From: Lepidostoma basale
Lineage: Eukaryota > Arthropoda > Insecta > Trichoptera > Lepidostomatidae
Assembly (NCBI GenBank): GCA_022606425.2
Contig: JAHDVF020001599.1
Coordinates: 1 to 64,000 of the forward strand
Direction: 5' to 3'
Length of the DNA stretch: 64,000 nt
The stretch's first letter is position 1. Every line of letters begins with the position of its first letter. Positions 5,925 through 56,170 of the stretch are shown here, piece by piece. A program made the position numbers and the translations under genes. The notes under the pieces were generated by a model, which was not told where the DNA came from, searched no databases, and saw only the letters and a list, made by a program, of their open reading frames with translations.

Positions 5925-6155
5925 AAAACGATGTTTTTTTACTAGTTCTACTTTTGTTTTTATTTCGACAGTAACCGGTTTCGCTAGGCTCGCTGGCATC
6001 GACAGACTGGTATGTCGATGCCAGCGAGCCTGGCGAATCCGGTCTCTGTCGAAATAAAGACAAAAGTGGAAATAGTTAAAAAAAACAACGTTTTACATAA
6101 TTATTATTTAAAACTAACTTCCATCAAGAGATTTTAGTAAAATCATTTGATTATC
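5925..6155. repeat. F2 hammerhead-like palindrome
   Basis: Two inverted arms each carry TCGATGCCAGCGAGCC and GAAACCGGT-type sequence. The outer right part includes CTTCCATCAAGAGATTTT, which recurs in F2 copies at 30700, 41770 and 59715. Six copies of this family are in the window. Confidence 0.7.
5969..6009 (-). ncRNA. Hammerhead-ribozyme-like motif (family F2)
   Basis: On the minus strand: stem I CAGT, box CTGTCGA (canonical CTGANGA, so A6 is T), one extra T, stem II GCCAG/CTAGC with a 5-nt loop, GAA, stem III ACCGGT, T at the cleavage position, stem I ACTG. All stems can pair, with one weak pair in stem II. The A6 change recurs in the readable F2 copies and would probably block activity. 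The partner motif on the + strand is at about 6013-6055. Confidence 0.35.
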
Positions 6156-6902
6156 AATATTTAAAATACGAGTAATATAAATGGCAAATTAATAAATTAA
6201 TGTTTGTGTAGTCTTATTATGCTCGTATTTTCATATAAGACAAAGCGAAGAAAAATATGAAACAAACTAATATTATATTTCAGTAAATTGCATAATGGTA
6301 CGCAATAAATATGGTACATACGACTTATAACACAATTTCCTGTATCAAAAAAAGTCAACAGTCAGATTCTCATATAGTCCACATTCAGCAAAACGTAGAT
6401 ACAGAGCAAGTATTATATTATATCGCCCGATAAATTCCTGGAGACATTTGTGCTGATTCTTCCTTCAGTTCCCACCGCAAACATTTAAAATGCATTAGAG
6501 TCTGGTCCGGAGTAAAAGGAGCACGCGGAAGTATTTAATAAAGCGCATTCCTGTGTCGCATTCGGGTACAAAATAAAAGGGCAGGAAATTGAAAAATTCT
6601 CTCTGGATTTCTGTACCTATGTATGTATGTGTATACCAATTTTCTGTGCACTTTTATCTCCTGTGATATCGTTAACACTTCAACTGTCAATTGTTAATGC
6701 GTTTTATTGATAACAATACATTTTATTGCTGACTTAATATTATATTACTTTCAGAACAGAAACATCAAATTAAACAATACGCCGTTTCTCCCATAGAGGA
6801 AGGCAGATACGAACTCTCAGACTGTTTATTTTAATAAGACAGAGACAGATGAACTGAAAATTAGTAAGTAGTTTTTTTTAAGTTTAAATTTATAACACTA
6901 AT
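6156..6902. other. No feature recognised
   Basis: AT-rich sequence with no long frame and no repeat shared with the rest of the window that I could see. Confidence 0.45.
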
Positions 6903-7172
6903 ACGACCTTCGTGGCCGAGTAGTGAGTGCTTTAACTACCACCACGAAGTTCCCGGGTACGATTTCAGGCGATGGCATTGTGATTGTTACACTGCCGTTG
7001 CAACGCGTTGGTCTGGTGCAAAATTCACGTGACAAAAAATGGTTAAATATATATTAGCTACCTTTCACATGTCACGAAAATCAATATGATAGCTATTCCA
7101 TTTACATCAATTTGGCTCGCGCTATAATGATATAAAGAGCGATTCAACAAGATAATAATAATAATAATAATA
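6903..7172 (+). repeat. tRNA-derived SINE, full-length but diverged
   Basis: It begins GACCTTCGTGGCCGAGTAG (A box) and has a degraded B box (GGGTACGATTTC). The body has GTGATTGTTACACTG and GGTCTGGTGCAAAATTC, and the 3' end TTTGGCTCGCGCTATAATG leads to an (ATA)n tail. It aligns along its length with the copy at 47269-47492, which has a better B box. Confidence 0.8.
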
Positions 7173-7329
7173 TCACAAATATAGAGAAACACAAAAGTCC
7201 GGATCCGGATCCAACTGACAACATTTGCACCATCTATTATAAAAGAACATTATTTTCATTTTGTTATATTATTTTTATTTACTTATTTTATTTCATATCA
7301 TTATATTTTAAATAATTTGTTTTAGATTT

Positions 7330-7515
7330 ATTTGTGGACGTTGGGCGATCAAAGCGTGCGCGGGAAATGCCTATTGGTGGCGATAAGGTTCGCAACCCAT
7401 CACAACGCGTCTCTTACGGAAGCGAAAAGCGAAGGATGGAGCGCCGCATCGGTTAAAGTGTGTTTGTAGTCCATTCTTTCTGCCAACGGCGCGATGGTTC
7501 GTTAGTTAGTTAGTT
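7330..7515 (+). repeat. LINE-B 3' end (LINE-A relative)
   Basis: GCGGGAAATGCCTATTGG to GCGATGG and a (TTAG)n tail. It is shared with 53020-53210 and ends in the same TCCATTCTTTCTGCC block as LINE-A, but the upstream sequence differs. No intact frame. Confidence 0.65.
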
Positions 7516-7544
7516 TATAATATCTGAATTTTTATATTTTATTT

Positions 7545-7640
7545 TTTGAAATGTCGCGACAGCAGTTTTGACAACCGACATTGGCATCATCGGTGTTACA
7601 AACAACGTGATCCGAGATGACACAATTTAGGTTGGTTGAA
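7545..7640 (-). repeat. F5 hammerhead-like repeat, single arm
   Basis: On the minus strand it reads ACCGATGATGCCAATG, then CGGTTGTCAAAACTGCTGTCG. This is the F5 order (box, extra T, stem II, AAA in place of GAA, stem III, C). Substitutions in the core suggest it is dead. Confidence 0.5.
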
Positions 7641-7691
7641 GGTTGGTTATGCATCGTGGGAGATAAAACAATCTATGGAAACTTTGTCAAA

Positions 7692-8226
7692 GATTAATTG
7701 TATCTCAATAGAGACGAAGATTCAAATTGGAAACAGAAAATGGTGATCGAGGTGTTTACAGGACTTATGACCTGTCATTGGTTGGGTAAAACGCACGCTT
7801 TATGTAATACAACATTCCTTATTCCACCTTTTCTTATGACCACCATGTCTGACAAATTTTTGGAAGTTGTATATAAGTTAATCTGTAACCCCACACTTCA
7901 CATGGTAGTTTCAATCTACACACTAGCGCCATCTTTGAAGATTGGATTTTAAGCATTAAGCAGAAGATCTTTTTGACGCAATGTGAAAGGCTACCGACAT
8001 TATCGTATTGCTAGATAACGCCTGAAGATGTCATTCCAATTTATATGCTATAACTTGGACCACTTTTTGTTATTACAACATTTTGAATGTATACAGATAC
8101 TTGTAGACGAATACTGGATTTTACCCATTGCGGGTTATCAATTCAAGGATTATAATCCTTGAATTGATAACCCGCAATGGGTAAAATCCAGTATTTGTCT
8201 ACAAGTATTTGTATACATTCAAAATG
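7692..8226 (+). repeat. FB1 unit plus inverted B end
   Basis: The A end (AATTGTATCTCAATAGAGAC) is at 7697 and the core follows. The B end runs from about 8088 (GAATGTATACAGATACTTG) to GGGTTATCAATTC and is followed at once by its own reverse complement to 8225. The B/B' junction is a nearly perfect palindrome with arms of about 68 bp centred near 8157. This is the best view of one complete A-to-B unit, about 465 bp. Confidence 0.8.
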
Positions 8227-8894
8227 TTTGTCAAATCAGGTATGAACAGACCTACGTCAATCAGAATAAACGATTTTTAAATATATATGTACAATGAAGA
8301 ATGATAAGTACCATGCGAAATATATTTATGAAGAGTGTAAAAAAGAGTGGATATAATGCGATATTTTAAAAAAATTATTGTAAATGACAATTTATTTTAC
8401 AAAAAGGCAATTTTTTTACTCGTTTAATCAAATAAGGATACGAAGGGTTATATAAACAATTTTTCCGCTACGATACTAGAATACTCCATTTACATAACGT
8501 CTAAAGCATACAATGCCTCGCGCATACATTGTGCAGTTTGCGTTGCATCTACGTGAAATAAAATCCACGGAAAACAATAAATTAATACGTATGCGTTATT
8601 TGTTCTATAAATCTCCTTTATTTTACTTCTATACAAACGAGATTCTAGCAAACCATTAGTTTATATGTTGAACGAATTGTATCAGCATTATTTTTATCTG
8701 TCTGGAAGTTGATAATAAAATAATTGATGCCTATTTTTTTTTTGTATATATCAGGTCATTTGAACCCAATTACTTTACACATTTTGTTAAGCTTTTATGT
8801 TGATTCTCATGATATGTGATAGGCACCAACGGCCATTTGTTTGGAAGTATGATTCTCAAAATATCTTTGGCCTGGTACTCGTATAGAATTTATG
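8227..8894. other. No feature recognised
   Basis: AT-rich, with no supported frame or repeat. Confidence 0.45.
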
Positions 8895-9889: not shown

Positions 9890-9948
9890 ACAGATGACGA
9901 TTTTTTTATGAAATTAAAGCACTATTTTTTCAACTTTTGAGTTAATTT

Positions 9949-9993
9949 TTCTCGACGTGTTTCGCAGGCTTTACACTTTTATCATCGGGAGAA
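9949..9993 (-). ncRNA. Hammerhead-like motif (F6, minus arm)
   Basis: Stem I TTCTC pairs with GAGAA (5 bp). Box CCGATGA (U4 is C), extra T, a weakened stem II, GAA, ACACGT, C. Stem I and the 3' core are good; the U4 change and poor stem II argue against activity. Confidence 0.3.
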
Positions 9994-10014
9994 CCATATA
10001 AACAGTTAATATCG

Positions 10015-10059
10015 TTCACCTGATGATGAAGGTTTAAAGCCCTCGAAGCATGTAGAGAG
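10015..10059 (+). ncRNA. Hammerhead-like motif (F6, plus arm) with intact CTGATGA
   Basis: Box CTGATGA at 10020-10026, extra T, stem II GAAGG/CCCTC (4 of 5 pairs, about 7-nt loop), GAA at 10045-10047, then GCATGT and A at the cleavage position. Stem I pairs partly. The conserved 5' core is fully canonical; the G at 15.1 weakens stem III. Confidence 0.4.
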
Positions 10060-10085
10060 AAAAAAACTCAAAAATAGAAAAAAAA

Positions 10086-10805
10086 TCACGCCGTTTCCCC
10101 GCAAGGGGAAGGTAGAGAGAATGGACCGCCATTAGTTCTAGATTCCTCCACATTCATACAACGAGTCATACACACGCGTTCATTCTTCCAACTTCTAACA
10201 TGACCAACCTTTAATTAATTTGATCATGTCATGTTTCCCTCGATCTACCTCGACTCCGTACTTCATTTACATCATTAACGTGTACTTTCTTAACCATTCT
10301 TTCCCTATCCATGCGTTCCATATGACCGAACCAACGTAGCAATCCTTTCATAATTTTGTTCACAATACCTTCTTCCGCTCTACAATTCTTTATTATATCA
10401 CTATTTGAGATTTTGTCGTATATCGTTCTACCACACATACGTCTTAGGGACTTCATCTCTACCGCATTTATTCTGCTCTAATCCTTATTCTGCCAGTTTA
10501 ATGCTTCGCTTCCATACATAAAGGTTGGGACCAGAACTCCATTGTGAACGGCCGTTTTTGCTTTCATTGATACATTATTGTTTCCATTGTTTATTTTTAA
10601 ATTCCATTCACATTGTTTACCCGCACCGACCCTTCTTTTGACGTTACTACCATATACCCTCGGCCATCCGCTGTGAGCATGCTACCTAAATACATAAACT
10701 CACTCACCTGCTCCAAGTTCTCTCCGTTCACACTTATGTTACAAACTGTCATTTGCTCTTCTCTTTCAAAAACTACCACCTTTGACTTTCCGACACGGAA
10801 AAAAT
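10086..10805 (-). pseudogene. LINE-A ORF2 C-terminal segment
   Basis: Reads, on the minus strand, MVVFEREEQ and then ENLEQVSEFMYLGSMLTADG (10597-10779), then MKSLRRMCGRTIYDK and LLRWFGHMERM (10229-10456). Gaps and frame changes separate them. The YLGS-x-LTADG motif is the region between the reverse transcriptase and the C-terminus in RTE-like LINEs. It is one of the longer LINE-A pieces. Confidence 0.8.
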
Positions 10806-12704: not shown

Positions 12705-12850
12705 CACCACTTTATTTTTAACAACTAACCGGTTTTGCTCCCGCAGGAGCTTCGTTAGGGATACAAACGACTATCGTCTCTTTTGTAACCCTGGCAAAGC
12801 TCCGCAAAAGCGAAATCGGTTGATTGTTAAAAAAATAATATTGTGTTTTT
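12705..12850. repeat. F8 hammerhead-like palindrome
   Basis: On the minus strand at about 12730-12760: box CTAACGA, one extra A, a perfect stem II GCTCC/GGAGC around a short loop, AAA (GAA changed), ACCGGT, T. The + strand arm (12790-12833) reads GCAAAGCTCCGC, then GCGAAATCGGTTG. It has the same architecture as F2-F6 but a different primary sequence. Confidence 0.45.
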
Positions 12851-13794: not shown

Positions 13795-13932
13795 AGTTTA
13801 TGTTGTATAAATGTGTTATACTTATTTGAAATTTAAAAACTTTGTTTAATCCACTATTTGATAAAAAATATTTAAAAACATTAGATGTTTCAGAGGATAC
13901 CTCCATCTTTAGGTGTACAACAACAACAACAA
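13795..13932 (-). repeat. F3 hammerhead-like repeat, single arm
   Basis: On the minus strand: ACACCTAAAGATGGAGG, then ATCCTCTGAAACATC. Stem I sequence, box CTAAAGA (G5 changed), extra T, stem II GGAGG/CCTCT, GAA, truncated stem III. It ends in an (AAC)n microsatellite shared with the adjoining LINE-A tail. Confidence 0.55.
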
Positions 13933-13934
13933 CA

Positions 13935-14705
13935 ACAAACCATCACGCCGTTTCCCCGCAGGGGTAGGCAGAGAGAATGGACCGCCAGACTACTCAATCC
14001 TGGCACACCTCTCTAGCTTCCTCCACATTCATACATCGAGTCATACACGCACGTCGATTCTTCCGATTTCTGACATGACCAACTTTTAATATTTGATTAA
14101 TCTGGTCATGCCATGTTTTCCTCGGTCTACCTCGACTCCTTACTCCATTTACATTGTTAACGTATACTTTTTTAACCATTCTTTCTTCACCCATACGCTC
14201 CATATGTCCGAACCAACGCAGCGAACCTTTTATAATTTTGTTCATAATACCTTCTTTCGCTCTACATTCCTTCCTCATATCAGCATTTAAGATTCTGTCG
14301 TACATCGCTCTACCACATACGTCTTAGGGACCTCATCTCTATCACATTTATTCTGCTCTCATCTTTCTTCTGCCAATTCCATGCTTCGCTTCCATACATA
14401 AGGGTTGGAACCAGAACTCCATTGTGAACGGCCATTTTCGCTTTCATTGATAAATTCTTGTTTCCAATAACTACTTTAAAAGCTCCATTCACTTTGTTAC
14501 CCGCACCAACCCTTCTTTCAATATCACTGTCCGTTCGGCCATCCGCTGTGAACATGCTACCTAAATACACAAATTCCCTCACCTGTTCCAAGTTCTCTTC
14601 ATTTACACTTATATTACGAATTAGACTTTCCGACATCATCTAAACATTTATTCTCAAATTGATCGCACATCTCATTTAACTTCCCTTCCATACCTCCTCT
14701 TATTT
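13935..14705 (-). pseudogene. LINE-A ORF2 C-terminal segment, longest copy
   Basis: Two consecutive minus-strand frames, 14310-14639 (ENLEQVREFVYLGSMFTADG, IERRVGAGNKVNGAF, LMYGSEAWNWQKK) and 13994-14305 (LRWFGHMERMGEERMVKKVY, RGRPRKTWHDQINQ), are separated by a small frameshift near 14306. With it removed, about 215 residues of the region downstream of the reverse transcriptase are readable, so this copy is relatively young. Its tail is (AAC)n, not TTAG. Confidence 0.85.
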
Positions 14706-14774
14706 TCCAAGTACCGATGCGGCACTCCACTCTCCTCTGTTTGCCCCTGCGGGAACGTCAACGTAGGTGTACAA

Positions 14775-15350
14775 ATATAATAAAAACTAAACAAAGAAAG
14801 ACCAATACAAAACGCATTTAAAATTCGATACAATAATTCAAATTTAAAAATTAACCTTGTTATACATAAGTAGGTACTAAGAATTATTTTTTTAACAGTG
14901 AAGTGAAATTGGATGAAAATATAATTAATAATCAGATTCCTCATTTTACTCCTTTCTCCTTAAATACTTAATCTACTTTTAATCTTCCAAGCTCCCATTC
15001 CTAATCAAATGCAAATCAATCATTTATTAATTTCTATATAAATTATGTCTTTTCAAATGTAAGTTTTTTCTAAATTATATTATCATCATGTATTATTATT
15101 ATTTAATATTTATTATTTCTTTCTCTTAAAAAAAAAGCATTAGTACTTATAACAAAGAGCCCAGGTTCATTTTTAAATTTGAATTATTGTATCAAATTTT
15201 AAATGCGTTTTTCATTTGTTTTTCATTGTTAAGTTTTTATTATATTTTAACACCTGAATATGGAGGTATTTTTTTAATAAAAATTGGATTAAACAAAGTT
15301 CTTTTCAATTTTCTAAGTATATAATTACGGAATTCCACAGTGTTGATGCC
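14775..15350. mobile_element. Penelope-like element remnant, inverted 3' ends
   Basis: From 14896 on the + strand a segment reads VKLDENIINNQIPHFTPFSL, matching the reading at 48865-49510, followed by a 3' untranslated part ending in CACCTGAATATGGAGG (the start of an F3 hammerhead-like motif). The preceding 14778-14895 is the same 3' untranslated part in the opposite orientation. Head-to-head truncated copies are common for Penelope-like elements. Confidence 0.55.
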
Positions 15351-15399
15351 TTAGCTTTCAAAAAGTTGATATCTTTACTTTTATTGAATACATTTTTAT

Positions 15400-17140: not shown

Positions 17141-17660
17141 TGCACTTCCATAAGAGATTATATGTATAACTCATTATGTATTCAATGAAATTTAAAGTTA
17201 GACATTGTAAATGTCAGGTATATCCATGTAATTTGAGACTAAGTTGGTATTAGTTTTTAAGGAAGCGCAATATTTGTAGTATAAAATAATATAAATCTTA
17301 GGAAATTTTGAAGATTTATATCTAAGTGTTTTTTTTAGAACAATACATCTTACGCGCAATAAAATATAAAAAATAGCATTACAATATATACCAAACAGAG
17401 AGTTTTATTGTTTCTGAAGATAAAAATGAGGCTATTTAAAAATGTTTCGTTAGGTACGTTATAACGTTGGAAAAGCCCTTGTGTTTACAGCTTATGTAGT
17501 AACAAGCTGCTTTTCTGTGTAAAGTATGCGTAATCTTATTCATGATGATATGGGAGGGTGTAAATTAAATTTTAGTACACTAGGGGTGAAAAATTACACC
17601 CCATAAAATGTTAAGTAAAGTGAGCTAAATCACAATGAGGGTTATATAACGTTCTCTTTG
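17141..17660. other. No repeat recognised
   Basis: AT-rich. A short inverted repeat (AGGGGTGAAAAATTACACCCC, positions 17583-17603) is present. No gene is supported. Confidence 0.35.
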
Positions 17661-20084: not shown

Positions 20085-20160
20085 TAAAAAATATGGTCAT
20101 CACATGTTTCGCCTTTCTAAGGCATTATCTAATTAAAAAAACATTTGATTATGCGTTTTT
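20085..20160 (-). repeat. F4 hammerhead-like arm
   Basis: On the minus strand: AGATAATGCCTTAGAAAGGC, then GAAACATGTG. Box GATAA (G8 is A), extra T, stem II GCCT/AGGC, GAA, ACATGT, G in place of C at the cleavage position. A relic. Confidence 0.55.
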
Positions 20161-20267
20161 AAGATAATCTAATGGTTGTACTGAATTCTTTTGATGATAT
20201 TCAATTTTAAATAATAATTGTTTGTAATAGAACAATGTTTTCTTATTATTTATTATTTTTATTTTAT

Positions 20268-20430
20268 TGAATGTCGGCCATGTGAGAAGTCAGAGAAATC
20301 GACGCGCGCGCATGACACGATGTATAAATGTTGAAGAAGAGAGAGAAATATGTCATGAGAAAAGTGTGGCAGTCCATTCTTTCTGCCTACTCCTTCGAGG
20401 AGACGGCGTGATGGTTAGTTAGTTTGTTAT
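20268..20430 (+). repeat. LINE-A 3' terminus with TTAG tail
   Basis: GAATGTCGGCCATGTGAG to GGCGTGATGGTTAGTTAG. It aligns with the left-edge copy, with several substitutions and an indel. Confidence 0.8.
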
Positions 20431-20565
20431 TTTTTTTTTTAAGTACTTCCATTTTTAAGAGAAACCGGTTTCACCAGGCTAGCTGGCATCGACATACTGG
20501 TCGTTTATGATCAGTCTGTCGATGCCAGATAGCTAGGTAGTTCATAAAAAATAACGTTTTATTTA
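20431..20565. repeat. F2 hammerhead-like palindrome, eroded
   Basis: GAAACCGGTTTCACCAGG, then GCTGGCATCGACA on the left; GTCTGTCGATGCCAG on the right, where the stem II and GAA positions are lost. Confidence 0.65.
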
Positions 20566-20569
20566 ATTA

Positions 20570-20660
20570 TTGTGTGTAATGCCTTAGAAAGACGAAACAT
20601 GTCATTAAATATCTAATTAAACTTTTAGAAAGCCGTATTTTTCATTCTTATTAATTAAAA
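20570..20660 (+). repeat. F4 hammerhead-like arm
   Basis: TAATGCCTTAGAAAGACG then AAACATGTCATT, followed by TTTTAGAAAGCCGTATTTT. It follows the F2 copy directly. Confidence 0.55.
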
Positions 20661-21584: not shown

Positions 21585-21730
21585 ATTTGTAAATAATAAT
21601 TATCACTGATTAAGGGCTGGTTAGTCCGAAACATGTTAGATATGTATATAAATATTTTTAATAAAGGTGAATGTTGTATATAAAGTATATAAAAAAGAAA
21701 CATTGAACATCTACAACACAAATTTCAGGC
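21585..21730 (+). repeat. F7 hammerhead-like repeat
   Basis: CACTGATTAAGGGCTGG then TTAGTCCGAAACATGTT: box CTGATTA (G8 is T), extra A, stem II GGGCT/AGTCC, GAA, ACATGT, T. Downstream it matches the right part of 16985-17140. Confidence 0.5.
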
Positions 21731-21784
21731 AAACATAGAATATATTATTTATTTTATTAAGCGCTAAAGCATTAACAGTGTGGA

Positions 21785-21945
21785 ATTCCATACTTAGAAA
21801 ATTGAAAATAACTTTGTTTAATCCACATTAAAAATATTAAAAAAAAAAACACGACATGTTTTGGAGGTATCGACCGAAACATGTCGTGTTTTTTAATACT
21901 TTTTTACTATCAAGTGGATTTAACATAGATAATTTTAATTTGCTA
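21785..21945. repeat. F3 palindrome, collapsed centre
   Basis: ACACGACATGTTTTGGAGG on the left and CCGAAACATGTCGTGTTTT on the right meet with only GTATCGA between them. The two hammerhead-like arms have merged and the boxes are deleted. Confidence 0.65.
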
Positions 21946-22204
21946 AGTAGATTATTTATTGTTCTCTGAGAGTTATTGTCCATGACACAGAACCATATAT
22001 CACAACTGGCTTAATGATGGGGTTATAATTGCAATAATGTGAATATTCTTACCTTTTTTAATGTGTATAAAATTACGAGTTACACCCACGAAAATTAGTG
22101 TTTAATCTTATACATAGTTTAAAAGGAATATTTTCATTATTTTTTTGCATATAAAATTGTAATGTATATTTTAAAATAAAATGTTGTATTGGTACAGTTA
22201 TTAA

Positions 22205-23092: not shown

Positions 23093-23224
23093 ATAATGAG
23101 CAATTTTCTGCTAATATTGAAGATTACATAATAAATTCTATTGCCAATGTTTAAAATCCTCGGAGTGAGTTTCTAAAATAAAAACGTTTTTTTAAATGTT
23201 GTTTTTTAGTTTCAAAGTAAATGT

Positions 23225-23268
23225 TTAAAATGGTGGTAGCGGGCTACCGAAACCGGCTTAAATTATGG
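23225..23268 (+). repeat. F9 hammerhead-like 3' half
   Basis: ATGGTGGTAGCGGGCTACC, then GAAACCGGCTTAA: a perfect stem (GGTAG/CTACC), GAA, ACCGGC, T. Similar to 35160-35215. The upstream CTGANGA box is not recognisable. Confidence 0.4.
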
Positions 23269-28543: not shown

Positions 28544-28544
28544 A

Positions 28545-30098: not shown

Positions 30099-30567
30099 CC
30101 TAAATAGTTCACCTCTGCCATTTACTAGAAGCCATTTGAATGGTTCTCATCGGTCCTAATTCAAAAATCTTCATTCTTCAATATGTAAACGAATGTATAT
30201 TAGATACTAAGGGAAAATGAAAACTTTAACGTCCTCGCTATAAACATATTCCAAATTTCAAATAAACGTATGAGAAAATCGAACTGAACTCCTTAATAAA
30301 ATACTTTTTTGCGGCTAAAACTGAATTAAATATAATTTGTAGGCAAGAGCGGCTCGTAAACCTTACAATGAATGTTTTCATACCACCCTCGGGTATAATC
30401 TTTCTTGGAGAAGGGAAAAAACGAAAAAAAGACGCTTTTCCATACTTAAGTTTGGGGACGCGTTTATGCGTGAACTTTGGAAGCTTTCGAGTAGTGTCTT
30501 CTGTCGGGCAGTGGTGGCTAAAAAAAATAGCTTTTTTTAATCAAAATATTTTAATAATAATGAAATG
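30099..30567. other. No feature recognised
   Basis: AT-rich to moderately mixed sequence. A 66-codon frame (30368-30568, +) has no motif. Confidence 0.35.
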
Positions 30568-30728
30568 AAACGATGTTATTCAGGCTAGCTGGCATCGACA
30601 GCAAAACGACTTGGCAAAACCAGTCGCTGTAGAAAGAATGACAATAAATGGTAAATAAATAAAAAATCGTTTTATTAAATTATTATTTAAAATAAACTTC
30701 CATCAAGAGATTTCGGTAAGATAATTAG
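30568..30728. repeat. F2 hammerhead-like repeat, internally deleted
   Basis: AGGCTAGCTGGCATCGACAG, then TTGGCAAAACCAGTCGCTG and AACTTCCATCAAGAGATTT. One arm has lost its box. Confidence 0.6.
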
Positions 30729-31724: not shown

Positions 31725-31825
31725 CATATAGGTGTTAGACCTGATGACGTCAACATATGTTGACGAAAAAGATGTCGCGTAAAATAAAATACAATTGTGA
31801 TACATAAAACAAAGTTATTTAATTT
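31725..31825 (+). repeat. F5 hammerhead-like repeat, one arm
   Basis: GACCTGATGACGTCAACAT, then ATGTTGACGAAAAAGATGTC and GCGTAAAATAAAATAC. The downstream AATACAATTGTGATAC matches the outer part of the palindrome at 50996-51246. Confidence 0.65.
31738..31780 (+). ncRNA. Hammerhead-like motif (F5) with intact core boxes
   Basis: CTGATGA at 31741-31747, extra C, stem II GTCAAC/GTTGAC (6 bp perfect, loop ATAT), GAA at 31765-31767, then AAAGATGT and C at 31776. Both conserved boxes are canonical. Stem III (expected ACAGGTGT) is damaged and stem I pairs weakly. Confidence 0.4.
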
Positions 31826-31837
31826 AATAGTTTTAAA

Positions 31838-32035: not shown

Positions 32036-32039
32036 TGAT

Positions 32040-32080
32040 AAAGGTAACTTGTAACCGAAACATGTCTGAGTTTAGTGAAA
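32040..32080 (+). repeat. F7-like hammerhead relic
   Basis: TTGATAAAGGTAACTTGTAA, then CCGAAACATGTCTGAG: a box-like TTGATAA, extra A, stem II GGT/ACC with pairing inside, GAA, ACATGT, C. Confidence 0.4.
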
Positions 32081-35159: not shown

Positions 35160-35215
35160 TAATAAGACCAAAAAATGGCAGCAAGCTGCCGAAACTGATC
35201 GACGTTAAACACAAA
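35160..35215 (+). repeat. F9 hammerhead-like 3' half
   Basis: ATGGCAGCAAGCTGCCG, then AAACTGATCGACG: perfect stem GGCAG/CTGCC, GAA, ACTGAT, C. Related to 23225-23268. Confidence 0.4.
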
Positions 35216-38500: not shown

Positions 38501-38730
38501 GAAGATATTATCTATTTCATCTTCCTTATTTCTAATTGACCGAGCATTCCAGCTTCCAATTCCAATGTGTTTCTCCCGGAAAGAGTCTGATACCCGGTTC
38601 CCTTTCGTCGATTCTGCACTTGATACGGCGAGAGGTGGTCGTTTCACTTTCCTGCCAGCACGACATCCTCTGTGTCTTATCTTCTTAACATCTTCATTAC
38701 AACATATTATTATATTAGACGAAAATCTGG
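35527..38730 (-). mobile_element. Nearly full-length L2/CR1-group non-LTR retrotransposon
   Basis: ORF2 fills 35692-38730. A 3' untranslated part of about 140 bp (35555-35691) ends in an (AATAAT)n microsatellite at about 35530-35555, the style of 3' end known for the L2 clade. The 5' limit is unclear: the frame opens just after a TGA near 38730 and I see no separate ORF1. The element is the largest coding relic in the window and is relatively young, with one disabling frameshift. A second short 3' end of a related element lies at 53455-53530. Confidence 0.85.
35692..38730 (-). pseudogene. ORF2: endonuclease plus reverse transcriptase, frameshifted at YADD
   Basis: Residue numbers here count from 38647, an in-frame GTG that is not a real start; the open frame extends 27 codons further up with the basic RHRGCRAGRK motif. 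An APE-like endonuclease follows: N34 (WNARS), E61 (TETW), D181 and N183 (GDIN), LLDILIS 219-225, SDH 242-244. The reverse transcriptase has FRPVSNLPF, D606 and D612 (LLDMSAAFD), and GVPQGSVLGPL at 663-673. At 36550-36556 the Tyr-Ala of the YADD box is followed by one extra base and changed Asp codons, so the catalytic pair is lost. The thumb and C-terminus continue in the next frame to 35692 (SRLDYCNGIY, then GDRAFAVAGPSAWNNLP). The enzyme would nick target DNA and copy RNA in the nucleus; this copy cannot. Confidence 0.9.
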
Positions 38731-38929
38731 ATTTACGTCATAAATTTAAAAAAAAATTAATAAAATTAATTTATGAGTACATCTATACTTGACAGTAAGC
38801 TCTTGGTTTGGGTTTAAGGATAAGCATAAAGTAATACTAACTTTTCAATAAGCATTTTAATGTTATTTTATTACAAATTTGCTCCATAAGCTCTTATTTT
38901 ACTGGCATTGCTATGATTTGCACTTCAGA

Positions 38930-39884: not shown

Positions 39885-40577
39885 GGATTAATTGTATCTC
39901 AATAGAGACGAAGATGCAAATTGTTTTCTGGGAACAGAAGGTGGTGGTCGAGGCGCTTACAGGACTTATGACCTGTCATTGGTTGGGTTGAGCGATCGCT
40001 TCACGTTTAACAACATTCCCCATTCCGCCGTTATGACCACCACGTCTGACAAACTTTTGGAACTTGTATATATGGTAGGTTTCTACACCTATTTTTACAT
40101 TTTTATGTTCACTCTACACTAGCGTAATCTATTAGGATTAGAAAGCATTAAGCAGAAAACCTTTATTAATGTACTGTGAAAGTCTATGCAAATCATACAG
40201 TATTAGATTTCGCCTGGAGATGTCTCTCCAATTTTTTGCCTGCATGTACCAGTTATATTTATACAACAACATTTTGAATGTATACAAATTCTTGTAGACA
40301 AATACTGGATTTCACCAATTGCGGATAAATTATTTTTATTTTACAAGGATTAATTGTATCTCAATGGAGACGAAGATGCAAATTGTTTTCTGGGAAAAGA
40401 TGGTTTGGAACACGGAATTGGGAACAGGTGATTCGACCACCACCTTCTGTTCCCAGAAAACAATTTGCATCTTCGGCTCTATTGAGATACAATTAATCTT
40501 TGTAAAATAAAAATAATTTATCCGCAATGGGTGAAATCCAGTATTTGTCTACAAGAATTTGTATACATTCCAAATGT
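39885..40577 (+). repeat. FB1 composite: unit, tandem junction and inverted end
   Basis: A full A-to-B unit (A at 39891, B from about 40276) is followed by a B-to-A junction (TTACAAGGATTAATTGTATC) and then a hairpin in which A and B are mirrored (A' near 40475-40495, B' ending about 40573). The palindrome 40276-40573 has arms of roughly 130 bp. The text before the first A end (TTTACAAGGATTAATTG) equals that at the internal junction, as expected if the locus was once a longer head-to-tail array. Confidence 0.8.
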
Positions 40578-40612
40578 TGTTATGTATCTTATCTATTGAT
40601 TTTTAACACTAA

Positions 40613-41645: not shown

Positions 41646-41754
41646 AACGAAATGACATCAAACGCATTTATATGATATTTTATTAATACAAATATTCTCT
41701 ATATATTATATACCTAATCATGTTTCTGGGAGTTAAATAACAGTATTAAGGTAA

Positions 41755-41905
41755 TCAAATGATTTTACTGAAATCTCTTGATGGAAGTTCATTTTAAATA
41801 ATAATTAAATAAAACGATGTTTTTTAACTACTTCCACTTTTATCTTTATTTAGACAGCGACCGGTTTCACCAGACTCGCTGGCATCGACAGACTGGTAAC
41901 ACTAT
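41755..41905 (-). repeat. F2 hammerhead-like repeat, one arm
   Basis: GATTTTACTGAAATCTCTTG leads to AGCGACCGGTTTCACCAG and CTCGCTGGCATCGACAGAC. On the minus strand the order CAGTCTGTCGATGCCAG, stem II, GAAACCGGTCGCTG is intact. Confidence 0.65.
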
Positions 41906-42469
41906 TGTAAACTTAGTCCTTTATATACATACAGATCAGGGGTAGTAAACATGATTCTATACAAAAATATTCTTCAAACATTTATGTAAAATTTTCTGAA
42001 TTTAAATATTGGTATTACAGGTATTCTTGGAGGTTCGTATTTAATACAATGGATTTTAATTTTTATTATTGCTTACATATTCATATATAATGTTTGAAAA
42101 AATTATAATTTTTTTTTATTATTACTGAATTTAAATATCGCCTTATTCGGTTTTCTCCATCCATATAGCAGCTAGGGTCTGGAATCAAACAAAAACACAT
42201 TTTGGGCAGTAATCGATTCCAGAAATATAAGTAATAAGGTTATTAAAAAAAATCTATTGTTATATAATTAAAGCAAAGAACTTTTTATTATATAAGGTTT
42301 TGGAAAATGGTTCATTCAACACAACATTGACCTTTGTAGGTATGAGATGGTGAAATTAACTTTATGTATACTAAAAGTTAGAGATATCTTATTTTGATTG
42401 GTTAACCTATTATCTGAAGTGTTTATTTTTGCCATAACATGCAATAATAATATTTTTTGAAAGCTAAGG
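41906..42469. other. No feature recognised
   Basis: AT-rich, nothing supported. Confidence 0.35.
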
Positions 42470-42687: not shown

Positions 42688-42694
42688 CCACTGT

Positions 42695-42898
42695 GGAATT
42701 CCATAGTAATATATTTACTTAGGGAATTGAAAAAAACTTTGTTTATTTTCCACAAAACTTTAAAAAAACATGCATGTTTCGGAGGATACCTCCATCTTGG
42801 TCCTGAAGATGGAGGTTTCCTCTGAAACATGTCGTGTTATTTAATATTTTGTGGAAAATAAACAAAGTTTTTTTCAATTTCCTAAGAATAATAATATT
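42695..42898. repeat. F3 hammerhead-like palindrome, both arms
   Basis: GAATTCCATAG with GAATTGAAAAAAACTTTG at the left is mirrored by AAAGTTTTTTTCAATTTCC at the right. The centre carries two facing arms, GCATGTTTCGGAGGATACC and CTGAAGATGGAGGTTTCC. Confidence 0.75.
42802..42837 (+). ncRNA. Hammerhead-like motif (F3, plus arm)
   Basis: CTGAAGA at 42803-42809, extra T, stem II GGAGG/CCTCT (one G-U pair, 3-nt loop), GAA at 42824-42826, ACATGT, C at 42833, then GTGT. The core is canonical, but the 5' strand of stem I (GGTC) does not pair well with GTGT because the opposite arm overlaps it. Confidence 0.35.
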
Positions 42899-47492: not shown

Positions 47493-47539
47493 TTACTGTA
47501 TACACTTTGATAACGATAACATAAATTTATGAAATTGAT

Positions 47540-48364: not shown

Positions 48365-48562
48365 ACAAACTTTTAATGAATTAAAGCGCTGTTTTTTCCA
48401 CTTGAGTTTATTTTTCTCGACATATTTCGAAGACTTTACTAGTTCATCATCGAGATATATTGATAGAGTTTATATCGTTCTCCTCATGATGAAGGTGCAA
48501 AGCTTACGAAACATGTCGAGAAAAATATACATAAAAGTAGAAAAAAAACAGTGTTTTAATTC
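48365..48562. repeat. F6 hammerhead-like palindrome
   Basis: TTTTTCTCGACATATTTCG on the left and CGAAACATGTCGAGAAAAA on the right, with inverted TCATCAT/ATGATGA blocks within. Same order as 9890-10085. Confidence 0.7.
48478..48522 (+). ncRNA. Hammerhead-like motif (F6), good stems, mutated box
   Basis: Stem I TTCTC/GAGAA (5 bp perfect), box CTCATGA (G5 is C), extra T, stem II GAAGG with CTTAC (weak), GAA, ACATGT, C. The G5 change should abolish cleavage, but the fold is conserved. Confidence 0.35.
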
Positions 48563-48734
48563 ATAAACAATATTTTAAAATATTATAATATACGTCAAAT
48601 GGCTGTTAAATAGGTGTCTATATTGCAGAGATAACGTAAACATAGATTATCTATTTATAGCTCTCCATTAACAATTATGGTGCCTGCTACACTAAGTAAC
48701 TAACATATTCGTATAATATTAACTAACAATTTTC

Positions 48735-48832
48735 ATAGATCATCGAAGAGATCTCATTTCAACGACATTTATTCTACTTTCTTCCCTCTTTTGCCAGTTC
48801 CATGATTCACTCCCATACATAAGGGACTAGTA
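48735..48832 (-). repeat. LINE-A internal fragment
   Basis: AGAGATCTCATTTCAACG, then TTTGCCAGTTCCATG and CCCATACATAAGGG: about 95 bp of the SEAWNWQKK-MRSL region. Confidence 0.65.
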
Positions 48833-48864
48833 GATATATTGAACGCTTAGGCATGAACTCTGTG

Positions 48865-49510
48865 GAAATCCAAAGTATTATACTTAGAAAATTGAAAAAC
48901 TTTGTTTAATCCACTATTTAATAAAAAAATATTAAAAAACACGACATGTTTCGGAGGACACCTCCATCTTCAGGTGTAAAAATATAATAAAAACTAAACA
49001 AAGAAATATTAATAAAAAACGCATTTAAAATTCAAATGTAAAAATTAACCTTTGCTATTGGTTATAAGCAGGTACTAACAATTATTTTTTAACAAGAACT
49101 AATAAATAATATGAAATATGAATAATACATGATGATAATAGAAAAAAAAAATGTTATTTAGAAAAAACGTAAATTTGAAAATACATAATGATTAATTTGC
49201 ATTTGATTGGGAATGGGAGCTTGGGACATTAAATGTAGACAAAGTATAATATTTAAGGAGAAAGGAGTAAAAGAAGGAATCTGATTATTAATTATGTTTT
49301 CACCCAATTTCACCGACTTAAGGATTTCAAATTTTTCATGTTTGTTTAAATTATTGCTATTGTTAACCGTGTGAAGAAATTTAGTTTAATTTTTATCGAA
49401 ACTATGGTCAAATTCAATAAAATGGTTAGCCATCTCCGAAACATGGCAACACGTGTTTTTAATTTTTATTTATTAAATAGTTTAAGAAAGTTTTTCAGTT
49501 TCCTAAATAT
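48865..49510 (-). mobile_element. Penelope-like element 3' end with hammerhead-like motif
   Basis: From 49430 downward the minus strand reads MANHFIEFDHSFDKN, stop, TKFLHTVNNSNNLNKHEKFE, ILKSVKLGENIINNQ. HFIEFDHSF followed by FLHT, a Lys/Asn loop and a final E-ILK is the C-terminal pattern of Penelope-like ORFs after the GIY-YIG catalytic core. About 200 bp of 3' untranslated sequence follow, then the F3 motif on the same strand at 48939-48977. A second F3-like block (CCATCTCCGAAACATGGC) at 49420-49445 adjoins the left of this reading. The arms repeat at 14775-15350. Confidence 0.55.
48939..48977 (-). ncRNA. Best hammerhead-ribozyme candidate (F3)
   Basis: In 39 nt on the minus strand: stem I ACAC, box CTGAAGA (canonical CTGANGA), one extra T, stem II GGAGG/CCTCC with a 3-nt loop, GAA, stem III ACATGT (self-complementary, no loop), C at the cleavage position, stem I GTGT. 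All conserved bases except the extra T agree with a type I hammerhead. With no loop in stem III it would be expected to act as a dimer, as described for minimal hammerheads of Penelope-like elements. Whether it cleaves is untested. Confidence 0.55.
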
Positions 49511-50504
49511 AATACTAGTAGATATGTATGTTTCCTAAATGTCTTCAACAAGATTGTATACTTATTATGCTGGGTTTGTTTTTGATATTAAAAATACAAA
49601 TACGCAACATAAAGGATGCCTATACAAAGCAAGTGTTTTCTGTATTCATGAATATATTTTCTTGTCGATACAATTATTAACTTAAAAAAACTGTTTGTAC
49701 TATGTTTCCGACAAAGCGATTCTGTGAACCAGATCTTAAATGGATGTGTGTCACTTGTTTAACCAAATACAACAAAATTAAATTACTTCAAATGAGGTAT
49801 TCTGATGCTCAGCAATACTTTGATTGTATACTACCCTGACATAACAGTAACCTGTACTAAAATCAACATCCCCTGTCCAACATTTCATTAACAACCCCCT
49901 ACCAAAGTTGACTCCGCGAGCTACCCTCATCTCTGCGTATCGTATTAAACCAACCCCAAATTAATTCTATGCCCTTCCATCCCTTTCTGAAGGGTTTCTC
50001 TTATCTCATCCCCGCGTCATACTGCTGAAAGTCACATCAAGTCGTGACTGACAAATTATAATAAAAGTATTGTTTTTTCGAATAATGAATACTAATGAGA
50101 AAGCGAATAGTATTTTCTGTATAAATATATTCATTTTGTTTTATAAAGCGGATTTGTTGAATGACTTCCATATTTTCCTTGTCAATAAACATCACAATAA
50201 GAAGTGTTTTAAATTATGGAGATCAGAAGAATGTTTATTTGGTTTTCTTCTTCTTTATCGTCACCCATCTTCCGTCCACTGATATGTCTATTCCATTTTA
50301 CTCTACTCGTCCCTGTCTTGCTCCTTCCGTATTAAGGTCGTTACAGCTACTCAGACAATATGATCAGGTGGCTCTTAACACTCCATTTCATTATCTCAAG
50401 CAAACTTTATCACATTAATAAAATTTGTTTAAATATTTGTTTTAAATAGTCCATGGTTTTGGCCGAAACACTATGATACTTCAACATTAATACTGTTAAA
50501 ATTT
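49511..50504. other. No feature recognised
   Basis: Mostly AT-rich. 49830-50030 is pyrimidine-rich (CATCCCCTGTCC, ACCCTCATCTCTGCG) with no readable frame. Confidence 0.35.
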
Positions 50505-50700
50505 AAAACACTGTTACAATATCACAATTTCTTTTTATTCACTGAGAGTGTCGTGACACTATTTCGCCAACTGATGTTGGCATCATCAGGTGTTACAATA
50601 AAATACAGTTTATTGTAATATCCGTTGGAAAACAGCTGTCACGACAGTCCTAGTGAATAAAAAGAAACTGTGATATTATGACAGTGTTTTAAATTTTAAC
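50505..50700. repeat. F5 hammerhead-like palindrome
   Basis: Outer inverted text AACACTGTTACAATATCAC and GTGATATTATGACAGTG enclose two facing arms, GTGTCGTGACACTATTTCG and AAACAGCTGTCACGACAG. CCGAAACACTATGATACTTC just outside (50464) recurs inverted near 56230. Confidence 0.7.
50551..50593 (-). ncRNA. Hammerhead-like motif (F5) with intact core
   Basis: CTGATGA at 50583-50589, extra T, stem II GCCAAC/GTTGGC (6 bp perfect, loop ATCA), GAA at 50563-50565, ATAGTGT, C. The core is fully canonical and stem II perfect. Stem I pairs poorly. Confidence 0.4.
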
Positions 50701-50995
50701 AGTAATAATATTTGTTTTGTATTCATTATATTTTTACATATTTGTAATGTAATCTTATTTTATTTGTGTGTAAAAAAAAAGTGTTGTTACAAAGAAAGAA
50801 AAAAATATATAATTATTATTCCGCAACACAAAGTAATGGTGAATAAAGAATATTTTAGCCTATAGCTACATATGGTGTAAAATCATTTATTTTTTATCTT
50901 CATAAATACACTTTTTGTTCAATAGAAAATGGGAAGTTCGTATCCTTATACAAAGTACATTTAAACTGTAAATTAAAAAAAAAACTTAGTTTGAT

Positions 50996-51246
50996 GTATC
51001 GCAATTGTATTTTTATTTTACGCGATAGCTGTTTCAACCTATGTTGACATCATCAGGTGGTACAATAATATATCAAATGTAAAATTTTCGTGATTTTTCG
51101 AACCTTTATGTGTATTTGTTCCTATATACATAAAGGTTCGAAAAATCATGAAAATTTGACAATGTATATATTATTGTAACACATGATGAGGTCAACATAG
51201 GTTGACGAAACAGGTGTCGCGTAAAACAAAAATACAATTGTGATAC
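50996..51246. repeat. F5 251-bp palindrome with two facing hammerhead-like arms
   Basis: GTATCGCAATTGTATTTTTA at the left is mirrored by AAAATACAATTGTGATAC at the right. The arms match through the hammerhead-like block and on to TAAAGGTTCGAAAAATCATG at the centre. Matching may extend further out (AAACTTAGTTT versus AAACTTTGTTT). Confidence 0.85.
51179..51222 (+). ncRNA. Hammerhead-like motif (F5, plus arm)
   Basis: Box ATGATGA (C3 is A), extra G, stem II GTCAAC/GTTGAC (perfect), GAA at 51207-51209, stem III ACAGGTGT, C at 51218, then GCGT. Stem I pairs at three of four positions. The minus-strand arm (51021-51060) has CTGATGA intact but lost two bases before GAA. Confidence 0.35.
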
Positions 51247-51266
51247 AAAAAACAAAGTTTTTTATA

Positions 51267-53532: not shown

Positions 53533-53694
53533 AAACGAACCATAAACGAGGACCGGACCATATCGTACTTCAAGGAATCATATACTTCAAGATAGATAGC
53601 CCGGAATTTCTTAGCAAATTAACTTTTTAAACCACTTTACAACGTGCAAGAAAGACACATTGTGAACCTAGTACTTCATCCCCCTGCTTATGGC

Positions 53695-54005
53695 ACCTAG
53701 TTAGTGAGAAAGACTCAATCCTGGGATTCGTTTGCAGCAATTTTGTTCTATTCTTCTCTTCCATTCTTCCCTGTCTTGTGCGGCTCTTTTGAAATCTGCA
53801 TATGATGAGCAGCGCACGTCCACCAACAGGTCCTCCGGGTACACTCGGCGTGGGCGTCTCCTAGAGTTTGTCACCTCGGTCATACCCTCCATTATGGCAT
53901 GCAAGAGACCTTCTTGACGTATTACATGGCCGATCTATCTTGCACGCCTTTCGAACAAGGTCCTTATGGTACCTATTACGCTCAAAACTCGGCGATGTAT
54001 CGGAT
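53695..54005 (-). pseudogene. LINE C-terminus, distinct RTE-like family
   Basis: The minus frame 53701-53904 reads MHAIMEGMTEVTNSRRRPRR, VYPEDLLVDVRCSSYADFKR, AAQDREEWKRRIEQNCC. The order R-x-GRxRR, then D-x-x-DV, then AQDREEWRR is the terminal layout of RTE-like ORF2 proteins. The part above 53904 reads RHVIRQEGL-like text in another frame. One copy only. Confidence 0.65.
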
Positions 54006-54514
54006 ACAACGAATGTTATATTAAAACAATATTCTAAATGCAGCAGATTTTAAAGAAAAAGATTCTGTATAGATCCTTAATGTGTACTTGATCAATTGTA
54101 TATATACTCGTATATGCATCATGATGGTGATATTTTGTATAGTTCGTGTAGTAGTGGATAAAAACGTTTGTCTCTTGGATGCTCTTCTAATGAATAAACA
54201 ACGTCTGCTTCTGAAATACCTTTAATTCGAATATAATACGAAGAGATATTCGGCCATGAAGGCGAGCTTTGTGAATGAATACATAGTAAAGATCTGACGA
54301 GAATTTAAAGAAACATAATGTAATGCCATATATGGTAAATACAAATCAATTATTTGATATTGTATATGTAAATTTAAAAAGAATTCCATATTTAATATTA
54401 TTGATTCGTTACAAACTTCAAGTAAAGTAAAGCCTATTACCACCATAAAAAAAATGTTGAGAAGTATTCAAATCATGTATTTGGTAAATTATCAATATCA
54501 CGAATAAAAATAAT
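54006..54514. other. No feature recognised
   Basis: AT-rich; no gene supported. Confidence 0.35.
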
Positions 54515-54690
54515 ATATAATAGTGAATGGTGATAGCAATGGTAGTATTTAAGGAGTTTTATTATATTTTATGATAAAATAGTGAATGTTGATAGCGATG
54601 ATCGTATTTAATGAGTTTTATTATACAATAGTGAATGTTGATAGCAATGATCGTATTTACATAGATTTACTATATTTTCTGCCAGTGACA
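54515..54690. repeat. Minisatellite, three degenerate units
   Basis: AATAGTGAATGTTGATAGC then GATGATCGTATTTAATGAG and TTTTATTATA: three copies at about 54521, 54577 and 54629, unit about 52-56 bp. Confidence 0.7.
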
Positions 54691-54744
54691 GATTTTCTTT
54701 TGCAAAAGTATTAACAAAAATTGAATAGCAAACCATGTAACATA

Positions 54745-55197
54745 GATTGTTTTACCTACCGGCCGCCAGAACCAATCTGCCTCGGGTGACACCGGTGGGA
54801 AGAGCAATTATTATATTTTATTCCATTTTTTTATGCTTCTCTTTTGAATTCTCATAGTGTAATTGCAAACGATCTAGATTAAGTAGAGTAGCCAACGATT
54901 TGGATTTAGTCTGTTATGTTTGTAATTTTTATTAAAATAAAAATAAAATAAAATAAAAATAATCTGCTGAACGCGGTCTCCTCGGAAATCGACGTCCTTC
55001 ATATTAGTGAAAGTACGTTCAGAAGGCAATCTTTATTCTAGAGAGTATCCTGTCTTCCTAAAGTTGAACCATCTCTCATGCCTTTCTGGTAGTATACTAT
55101 ACACAATATATTATTTTACCTGTTCTCAATAGATGCCTTAAAAAATATTGTAATGTCTGTTGATGAAATAAACTGATTTGATTTAATTTGATTTGAA
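54745..55197 (+). repeat. LINE-T 3' end, split by a short insert
   Basis: TTTTACCTACCGGCCGCCAG to GGGAAGAGCAATTA at 54811, then from 54962 CTGCTGAACGCGGTCTCC, CATCTCTCATGCC, CTCAATAGATGCC and a TTTGATTTAATTTGATTTG tail. In the copy at 60780 the two halves are contiguous. Confidence 0.75.
54812..54961 (+). mobile_element. Short retroposon-like insert with (AAAAT)n tail
   Basis: About 150 bp absent from the uninterrupted LINE-T at 60862, ending in TTAAAATAAAAATAAAATAA and more of the same. The clean loss from the other copy and the simple-sequence tail suggest retroposition. No tRNA boxes were found and the target duplication is at most a few bases. Confidence 0.45.
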
Positions 55198-56094
55198 CTC
55201 TCGTGAGATGTAATTAAACTCTTAGAATACTATTGTTAACGTGGTAAATACGGATCGGATGTAATGTTTCAATACAAAATATACTTTTAGTAACAATTTA
55301 AATAGCTTTAATAAAGATTATTTCATATCACCTTCACACCACTTTGATAATAAGTATAATATATTTTTACAAACATATGTTTAGTATGCTGAAACAAAAA
55401 ATAAACTAGGTTGTCATTTTGAATTGACAAATCAAATCAAGTTTTAATGTTTTATGCGGAAAAAATGAAAAAAATAACCAATCAAACTAGTGCAAATTCA
55501 ATAATCGGAATTCAAAGGAAGCAATAATTGTGCCTCTTTGAGCTCGGCTACTCTTCTTAAATATGAATAATTCTTAAATTTTCATGCGACGTGCGTCAAA
55601 AACGGATGAAGGCTGGAATCATTGAGTGATGGGGGGTCGGGAAGGGAGTATATTATTGAAGTGGGTAGAAGAGAAAGAGGAATAAAAAGGAGAGGAAAAG
55701 AAAGGAATGTGGACTCTTAACACGAATATCCTATTTGCCTAAACGCCGCTTCGGAGAAATTTTCACTTGCCATTCGGCAAAATGGGTCGTCCCGTACTAA
55801 CCATTTCGGTAAACTTTTACTGGGTAAGCGTTTGGGTATAAAACTCCACCTTAATTCGTATTTGGAGTGTTCTTTAAAATGAAACACTATTTCTTTTCAA
55901 GTGTCTCTATTCTCACGAAGTAAAGTATCCAAGAGAGCCACACAATTGAAAAAAAGTACTACTAACAATCTTATTAAAAATATATGTTTCAAGTGAGGCC
56001 ACAATTTTCATTAAAATTAAAATTAATTTGGATCATTTCACAGCACTTTTCAAAATAACTATTGAAATATAAAACGGTGTTAATGGTATCACCA
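55198..56094. other. No feature recognised
   Basis: Unique sequence; 55600-55700 is purine-rich (GGGAAGGGAG, GAAGAGAAAGAGG). No frame is supported. Confidence 0.35.
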
Positions 56095-56170
56095 TTTTAA
56101 CATAATTTTTTTTATTTTTTGCGACAGCTGTTTCGTCAACCTATGTTAACATTATTAACAAAATTTATTT
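56095..56170 (-). repeat. F5 hammerhead-like arm
   Basis: On the minus strand: TAACATAGGTTGACGAAAC, then AGCTGTCGCAAAAA: stem II remnant, GAA, a perfect self-complementary stem III ACAGCTGT, C. The CTGATGA box is decayed to TTAATAA. Confidence 0.55.

Follow-up and report, generated by a model that had tools for sequence, protein, structure and literature searches.

The window analysed here, a 64,000-nt stretch of contig JAHDVF020001599.1 from the trichopteran Lepidostoma basale (assembly GCA_022606425.2), contains 17 insertion loci that, on reading of their neighbourhoods, carry a type I hammerhead-like motif with a palindromic stem III. These repeats are very probably decayed copies of several endonuclease-bearing lineages of Penelope-like elements (PLEs), retrotransposons that here have a hammerhead or hammerhead-like motif in the pseudo-long terminal repeat (pLTR) and would use two-strand priming. 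Four families are clear, each with its own stems. Family A has stem I ACAC/GTGT, stem II GGAGG/CCTCC and the block ACATGT; family B has stem I ACAC/GCGT or similar, stem II GTCAAC/GTTGAC or GCCAAC/GTTGGC and the block ACAGCTGT, and reaches position 56162; family C, which begins at 5969, has stem I CAGT/GCTG, stem II GCCAG/CTGGC and the block ACCGGT; and family E has stem I TCTC/GAGA, the block ACATGT and a stem II, GAAGG, whose 3' strand pairs at four of five places (two + arms). The further groups G, H, D and J are only tentative. Three of the 17 loci (7515, 31733 and 41752) are read as single copies and the other 14 as inverted twins joined head to head, 3' ends outward. The outer ends come in two lengths, of which the longer carries a "tail" of ~46 nt. 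The loci, with their target site duplications (TSDs), are as follows.

48826..49525: family A twin including its TSD, ACTAGTAGATAT (48826-48837, 49514-49525); left arm (-) long and tailed, right arm (+) short
48939..48977 (-): family A hammerhead with intact consensus (ACAC/GTGT, GGAGG/CCTCC, ACATGT), found with the strict descriptor and the covariance model
49278..49439 (-): possible relic of a PLE GIY-YIG domain upstream of the A hammerhead, matching residues 691-747 of the family C open reading frame (ORF) at 40% identity (E 0.073)
13810..15361: family A twin; an RTE-like insertion (about 13940-14764) interrupts its left arm, and the right arm (14903-15361) is tailed
13878..13916 (-): family A hammerhead in the left arm of the 13810-15361 twin, found with the covariance model
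21744..21960: family A twin, both arms beginning within the hammerhead; TSD ATTATTTATT (21744-21753, 21951-21960)
42691..42893: family A twin with hammerheads at 42799-42837 (+) and 42767-42798 (-)
50432..50718: family B twin; TSD AATATTTGTTTT (50432-50443, 50707-50718); hammerhead 50551-50593 (-), GCCAAC/GTTGGC; tail on the left arm only
50979..51263: family B twin with stem II GTCAAC/GTTGAC in its hammerheads at 51020-51060 (-) and 51179-51222 (+)
31733..31836 (+): family B single copy carrying a hammerhead at 31737-31780
56040..56263: family B twin with a very short + arm; hammerhead 56119-56162 (-)
7515..7601 (-): family B single copy, decayed; hammerhead 7554-7596, covariance model E 0.014
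5902..6153: family C twin with motifs at 5969-6009 (-) and 6008-6048 (+); only the right arm is tailed
20165..20575: family C twin; motif 20459-20499 (-); left arm contains an RTE-like fragment
30545..30726: family C twin whose motifs are incomplete
41752..41898 (-): tailed single copy of family C, its motif at 41855-41895
59705..59890: family C twin with motifs at 59804-59844 (-) and 59843-59883 (+)
60158..60324: family C twin with motifs at 60250-60290 (+) and, at E 0.034, 60204-60244 (-)
9902..10085: family E twin with hammerheads at 9950-9992 (-) and 10016-10058 (+)
48373..48570: family E twin with hammerheads at 48415-48455 (-) and 48479-48521 (+) and the terminal motif at 48546
12723..12825: tentative twin H (GCTCC/GGAGC, ACCGGT); covariance model E 0.11 and 0.65
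20097..20135 (-): tentative motif G (GCCTT-AGA-AAGGC, ACATGT), with others at 5582-5619 (+), 20568-20607 (+) and 28663-28690 (-); E 0.02-0.17
21602..21641 (+): tentative singleton D, without the terminal motif; covariance model E 0.3

The RTE-like insertion in the 13810-15361 twin lies within its left hammerhead and, by eye, apparently duplicates GTACACCT. Possible further hammerhead families with other stems are seen in the window at 32030-32073, 23223-23263 and 35165-35204 and, among loci fetched from the host genome (L numbers), at 4534-4574 of L023 and about 1232 nt after the GIY-YIG of L054.

A sequence-only reading of this stretch had claimed seven or more unrelated families with one common layout (a CTGANGA-like box, one base, a hairpin, GAA, a self-complementary block, and C or T) and with compensated changes in stem II. 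That layout is present where it was placed, and the compensated stem II changes (GCCAAC/GTTGGC, GTCAAC/GTTGAC, GCCAG/CTGGC, GGAGG/CCTCC) are borne out in the families; stem I, which the claim did not include, is compensated as well, worst in family B. The number of seven is reached only by including sub-lineages of B and the tentative groups G, H, D and J, four families being sure, and the families are not unrelated in kind, since they have in common a terminal motif and the twin architecture. The CTGANGA-like core is likewise found in families A, B and E, in the conserved form CUGANGA...GAA with single copies decayed, but not in family C, which reads CTGTCGA. A strict descriptor, consisting of the core CTGANGA and GAA, stem II, the self-complementary block and stem I, gave five sites with at most two defects in the window versus one in 30 Markov copies of it; a looser descriptor was discarded because shuffled sequences scored almost as high.

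The stems covary. In an alignment of 13 copies, standard pairs fill 85.5% of the pair cells versus 64.2 +/- 2.6 in shuffles (reached by 0/500), and 40 cells are changed on both sides versus 15.6 (again 0/500), although such cells are not independent events and the contrasts lie mainly between the four families, with few independent events per pair. As a further control, sliding the stem partners gave at most 47.9% standard pairs. Both stems I and II covary on these main measures, within the three-helix arrangement of a type I hammerhead, so that the outcome named beforehand as fatal to the sequence-only reading, namely no covariation beyond phylogeny, did not materialize to the extent that shuffles and slides can reveal it. 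Two secondary measures are not outstanding in the same copies: two-sided change in 10/13 pairs was reached by 48/500 shuffles and the 23 further pair types by 90/500. When five family consensuses (including the single copy D) were compared, the 5' strands mostly paired best with the 3' strand of their own family, with two exceptions: the B stem I 5' strand pairs 4/4 with the 3' strand of A versus 3/4 with its own, and the E stem II 5' strand pairs equally with that of A (4/5 each). A covariance model built from the 13 copies found seven additional sites at E <= 0.002, namely a further C copy and six arms that are the inverted partners of copies used in training; weaker matches comprise the multi-copy family G, the twin H and the singleton D, and the singletons D and J are tentative. 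Rfam detected no hammerhead in the window, either at the gathering score or at E <= 5, and several of its sub-threshold miRNA matches fall on the palindromes. Exact-pattern scans of viral contigs yielded no relatives, and folding the decayed copies, as minimum free energy (MFE) structures or as dimers, was not informative.

Another common feature of these families is their 3' terminus. The 3'-terminal stem-loop sequence AAACANNGTTTT, or a near form of it, lies 23-40 nt past the predicted cut in A, B, C and E (15 arms measured). The exact sequence occurs 14 times in the window, whereas 100 first-order shuffles had 0.9 on average and never more than 4; ten of the 14 are at hammerhead loci, an eleventh is one of those ten read in reverse, and the other three, at 18087, 58744 and 16587, have no visible adjoining hammerhead.

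The host genome assembly (769 Mb, of which the window is one contig) reveals the genes to which two of these families belong. A GIY-YIG profile search returned 62 matches at E <= 0.001 from 150 of 541 candidates scored. Loci L021 and L022 each contain a 758-aa open frame with RVT_1 at residues 302-478 and a C-terminal GIY-YIG at 651-734 (1.4e-13 and 6.6e-05, respectively, in L021), and the two frames are identical at 754/758 residues. The L021 frame (1507-3780, +) has a C motif on either side (1156-1196, -; 4165-4205, +), each accompanied by the terminal motif (1123, -; 4238, +), and the L022 frame is likewise situated between C motifs. Top-scoring C motifs number 32 in 35 loci, five being the same sites seen in overlapping loci. 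In a second set of 20 loci with divergent GIY-YIG (L036-L055, of which L036 has no PLE match), nine have an A-type (CTGAAGA) hammerhead on the same strand, at most 1300 nt downstream of a GIY-YIG that is 40-54% identical to that of C, and the covariance model adds A hammerheads in L037, L038 and perhaps L042. L052 exhibits a weak G-type motif (seven defects) 233 nt past its GIY-YIG. Because their motifs flank or follow reverse transcriptase (RT) plus GIY-YIG and GIY-YIG, respectively, families C and A are PLEs. Family C combines the RT and GIY-YIG ORF with an inverted pLTR and head-to-head copies, a tail on one pLTR and a short TSD, as is typical of endonuclease-bearing PLEs, and for family A the endonuclease, twin and tail are all evident. 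The earlier suggestion that several PLE lineages have lived in this genome therefore holds for at least two by ORF, and its proposed check, joining the repeats to full-length PLE ORFs, succeeded for the full-length C copies and for the A hammerheads downstream of GIY-YIG. Families B and E have the same kind of ends as A and C and are predicted to be PLE lineages as well, each presumably with a helper.

These results bear directly upon the possibility that the palindromes are Foldback-like DNA transposons or miniature inverted-repeat transposable elements (MITEs), i.e. terminal inverted repeats moved by a transposase, with the hammerhead being incidental. The loci are indeed palindromic, some have target duplications, and a mariner-type transposase is present in the window. 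Such elements should have equivalent ends, whereas one end is ~46 nt longer than the other in the 12 C twins scored; the inner truncation points differ between arms, the stems covary, and the full-length C copies carry RT and GIY-YIG and are not the DNA transposons lacking such an ORF that would have overturned the sequence-only reading. This explanation is already contradicted for A and C, and we regard it as exceedingly improbable overall.

The asymmetry of the twins bears on how they form. In the window, whole-3'-end local alignment over-extended in AT-rich DNA and was replaced by an alignment of the tail only against shuffles, applied to the twins of families A, B and C. Ten twins (A 4, C 4, B 2) have one clearly tailed arm, and in none does the partner pass as tailed, the right partner arm at 42691 being borderline (25/1000 shuffles) and the right arm at 59705 having lost its 3' end. 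The C twin at 60158 has one borderline arm and no clear tail, and the B twin at 50979 has no tail with the tail sequence used. TSDs of 10-12 bp are significant in 3/15 window loci. In the host genome, 12 C twins with both ends visible were scored (L009, L012/L031, L013, L020, L028 and L030 were left out), and exactly one arm is tailed in 12/12, the tail of L007 carrying one variant and being visible in its sequence. In 11/11 the two arms end at different reference positions, 3106-3114 for one and 3062-3079 for the other; in the twelfth, L021, the longer arm is itself the reference and one tail is seen in its sequences. Direct TSDs of 11-14 bp flank 9/10 young C twins, the tenth, L021, sitting in a TA repeat. 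For family B, the first look gave 2978 candidate places, of which 40 were scored; the main arms were selected for having a tail, and 0/14 partner arms in the 14 twin loci pass as tailed, the nearest being L059 (15/300 shuffles). If tails were independent at odds of one half, the chance of these outcomes would be 0.017 for C (computed for 10 twins) and 0.00006 for B. An apparently constant 5' end, nine bases upstream of the B ribozyme, proved to reflect where the query itself was truncated and was dropped.

Direct TSDs together with two different outer ends imply two initiations of reverse transcription, one per target strand. The probable sequence of events would begin with a PLE protein cutting both target strands about 12 nt apart and priming cDNA on both. 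Each lineage has a type I hammerhead or hammerhead-like motif in its pLTR, shortly upstream of a terminal stem-loop near which reverse transcription would start; one cDNA would begin at an inner site and the other ~46 nt further out, thus including the tail. The two cDNAs, most of them truncated on the inner (5') side, would then be joined head to head, giving a palindrome with its motifs facing outward and a target duplication of 11-14 bp. It has also been proposed, in the available text of PMC3846280, that PLE copies become head-to-head by self-priming of a single cDNA. Arms that start at about the same place, such as those of L025 (reference 1940/1938) and the B twins L061-L065 and L067, are compatible with this, as are equal-arm twins in general. 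However, inner starts in C twins otherwise vary widely (reference 2099/1868, 1637/717, 1880/2196, 2018/2343), the arms of L023, L024, L026 and L034 starting 230-920 nt apart, and twins that have a direct TSD on each side and whose two 3' ends differ again imply two starts. One reverse transcription start per target strand fits better than fold-back self-priming, which we consider unlikely.

A third alternative is that the repeats are animal retrozymes, small tandem repeats that type I hammerheads process into circular RNA and that PLE proteins mobilize in trans. Consistent with this, the hammerheads are type I, only short copies of families B and E, lacking ORFs, are known here, and PLEs are named as likely helpers in the available text of PMC7761336. 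The direct tandem repeats of ~150-450 bp that characterize retrozymes are nevertheless absent at the hammerhead loci of the window, where the copies are mostly inverted twins, and retrozymes are accordingly a quite improbable source. Same-strand motifs recur in L020 (872, 2160, 2843) and L007/L033, which is relevant to partial tandem pLTR-ORF-pLTR copies, the units being not clear-cut.

Several observations weigh against decayed PLE lineages with two-strand priming, either in whole or in part. L021 and L022 have one inner junction in common (reference 2614), and an inverted pLTR may have been copied along with the element in these loci, in which case some twins may be copied whole. A TSD above threshold is absent in 8/15 window loci, several window arms have their start at the motif or within it, a pattern not accounted for by simple random truncation, and the MFE folds of eight decayed single copies mostly do not show the hammerhead. 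Among the 20 loci with divergent GIY-YIG, 11 are without an A-type hammerhead by the descriptor, two or three of which are gained by the covariance model. The putative relic at 49278-49439 lies within the longest A arm, with the strand and position expected of such a relic, but it is a weak match, and the same search gave a better one at 17439-17564 (E 0.032) that has no adjoining hammerhead, as well as a 14-residue match at 42172-42213 (E 0.19). No PLE ORF was found for family B in the two loci examined, L076 and L077, and none was seen for family E, for which none was looked for beyond the fetched loci. Lastly, PMC11167929 reports no strand difference in the reverse transcription start site in vitro and does not predict one tail per twin.

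The window also contains other elements. RTE-like 3' ends, some with TTG or AAC tails, are found at several places, among them 13940-14764, 10085-10745, 28060-28608, 26326-26754 and 20268-20435. A CR1/jockey-like non-LTR element with RVT_1 and an endonuclease lies at 36521-38737 (-), the closest proteins found being at most 43% identical, and the mariner-type transposase occupies 61091-62163 (-) in two open frames (Transposase_1, HTH_48). Six-frame Pfam scans (20/30 frame-chunks of the window, all within 60 kb) recovered the CR1-like RT as a positive control and found no GIY-YIG. An inverted repeat at 8077-8228, 97% identical, could be a young hairpin or MITE; no hammerhead was found in it, and it has sub-threshold Rfam miRNA matches. 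Large palindromes at 4354-4809, 40265-40581 and 62822-63093, with arms 88-90% identical, similarly had no hammerhead found in them.

Among known systems, Pen2a of Adineta vaga is a close parallel. According to the available text of PMC3846280, Pen2a-type PLEs have an inverted pLTR, a tail on one pLTR and a TSD of 8-10 bp. In endonuclease-bearing PLEs the tail is optional and 30-40 bp long, against ~46 nt here. The elements described here resemble Pen2a in their RT plus GIY-YIG ORF, pLTRs of which one is inverted, tail on one pLTR, short TSD, 5' truncation and head-to-head junctions. Unlike Pen2a as described in that text, the TSDs here are 11-14 bp, the window copies are mostly short twins, and a AAACANNGTTTT-like terminal motif is common to several families. 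What our data add to the older description of a tail on one inverted pLTR is the count. PAc, the Poseidon element of Anolis carolinensis, has a hammerhead, cuts and extends both strands, and starts reverse transcription in an AC-rich stem-loop, the tail lying between two start sites (PMC11167929). The families resemble PAc in having a hammerhead at the pLTR end followed by a stem-loop, with two reverse transcription starts explaining the tail, and differ from it in the distance from the cut, ~85-92 nt to the start in PAc (derived from positions in PMC11167929) versus 23-40 nt to the motif here, and in having one tail per twin in the sets scored. By description, not by sequence, they are also like the small, dimer-cleaving PLE hammerheads (Cervera and de la Pena 2014; Lunse et al. 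2017, as related in part of PMC7761336), being minimal type I motifs with a very short or absent stem III, family C being distinguished by A6 to U. A palindromic stem or loop III compatible with dimers is likewise described in the available text of PMC3088659 and PMC7229834 for hammerheads of Aedes aegypti, newt and axolotl, although the amphibian ones are described there in tandem repeats and those of L. basale lie in inverted twin insertions. PLE hammerheads and dimer-type palindromic stem III were therefore known already; what is new are these members, the core change in family C and the arm starts in family B.

The latter two features raise the question of ribozyme activity. The core of family C is CTGTCGA (A6 to U) in 27/28 copies and CTGTCAA in one, and we call it hammerhead-like because it departs from CUGANGA. 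According to the available text of PMC3088659, core changes mostly cause a drastic loss of activity, although active natural core variants exist. Preserved structure need not amount to catalysis, as family C keeps the fold but not the core A6, and this lineage still has open genes elsewhere in the genome despite its altered core. In family B, where the core is normal, five of the 14 partner arms start at +1 to +5 of the predicted cut, nine start at -2 to -42 of CTGA and none starts inside the ribozyme, the arm ends being taken from local alignment and uncertain by a few bases. The probability of at least five of 14 under a uniform start is 0.0002, the 5-nt window having been picked after seeing the data. 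By comparison, 0/12 shorter C arms start just after the predicted cut, in loci chosen for GIY-YIG and with L021 and L022 sharing a junction; Fisher's test of this contrast, run with 10 C arms, gave P 0.053. The B starts are an indirect hint of self-cleavage in vivo after a predicted H17, whereas stalling of reverse transcription at stem I would look alike. For PAc, the ribozyme required protein for cleavage, and insertion in vitro still took place when the ribozyme was lost (PMC11167929).

Taken jointly, it is conceivable, with chances that we would put somewhat below even, that B often inserts cDNAs ending just past the ribozyme cut, cleaved RNA templating the tail-less strand, and that C, with A6 to U fixed, has spread recently with open ORFs but without such ends, both using two reverse transcription start sites per twin, in which case PLE lineages would differ in whether their hammerhead cuts. 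With normal and altered cores coexisting, many insertions and readable cDNA ends, this genome allows sequence comparison to test whether ribozyme cleavage feeds reverse transcription. The twins also provide in vivo support for the extension of both strands seen in vitro for PAc. If the joint reading is true, PLEs could move in an animal without catalysis, and they would normally integrate by the two-strand, two-start reaction.

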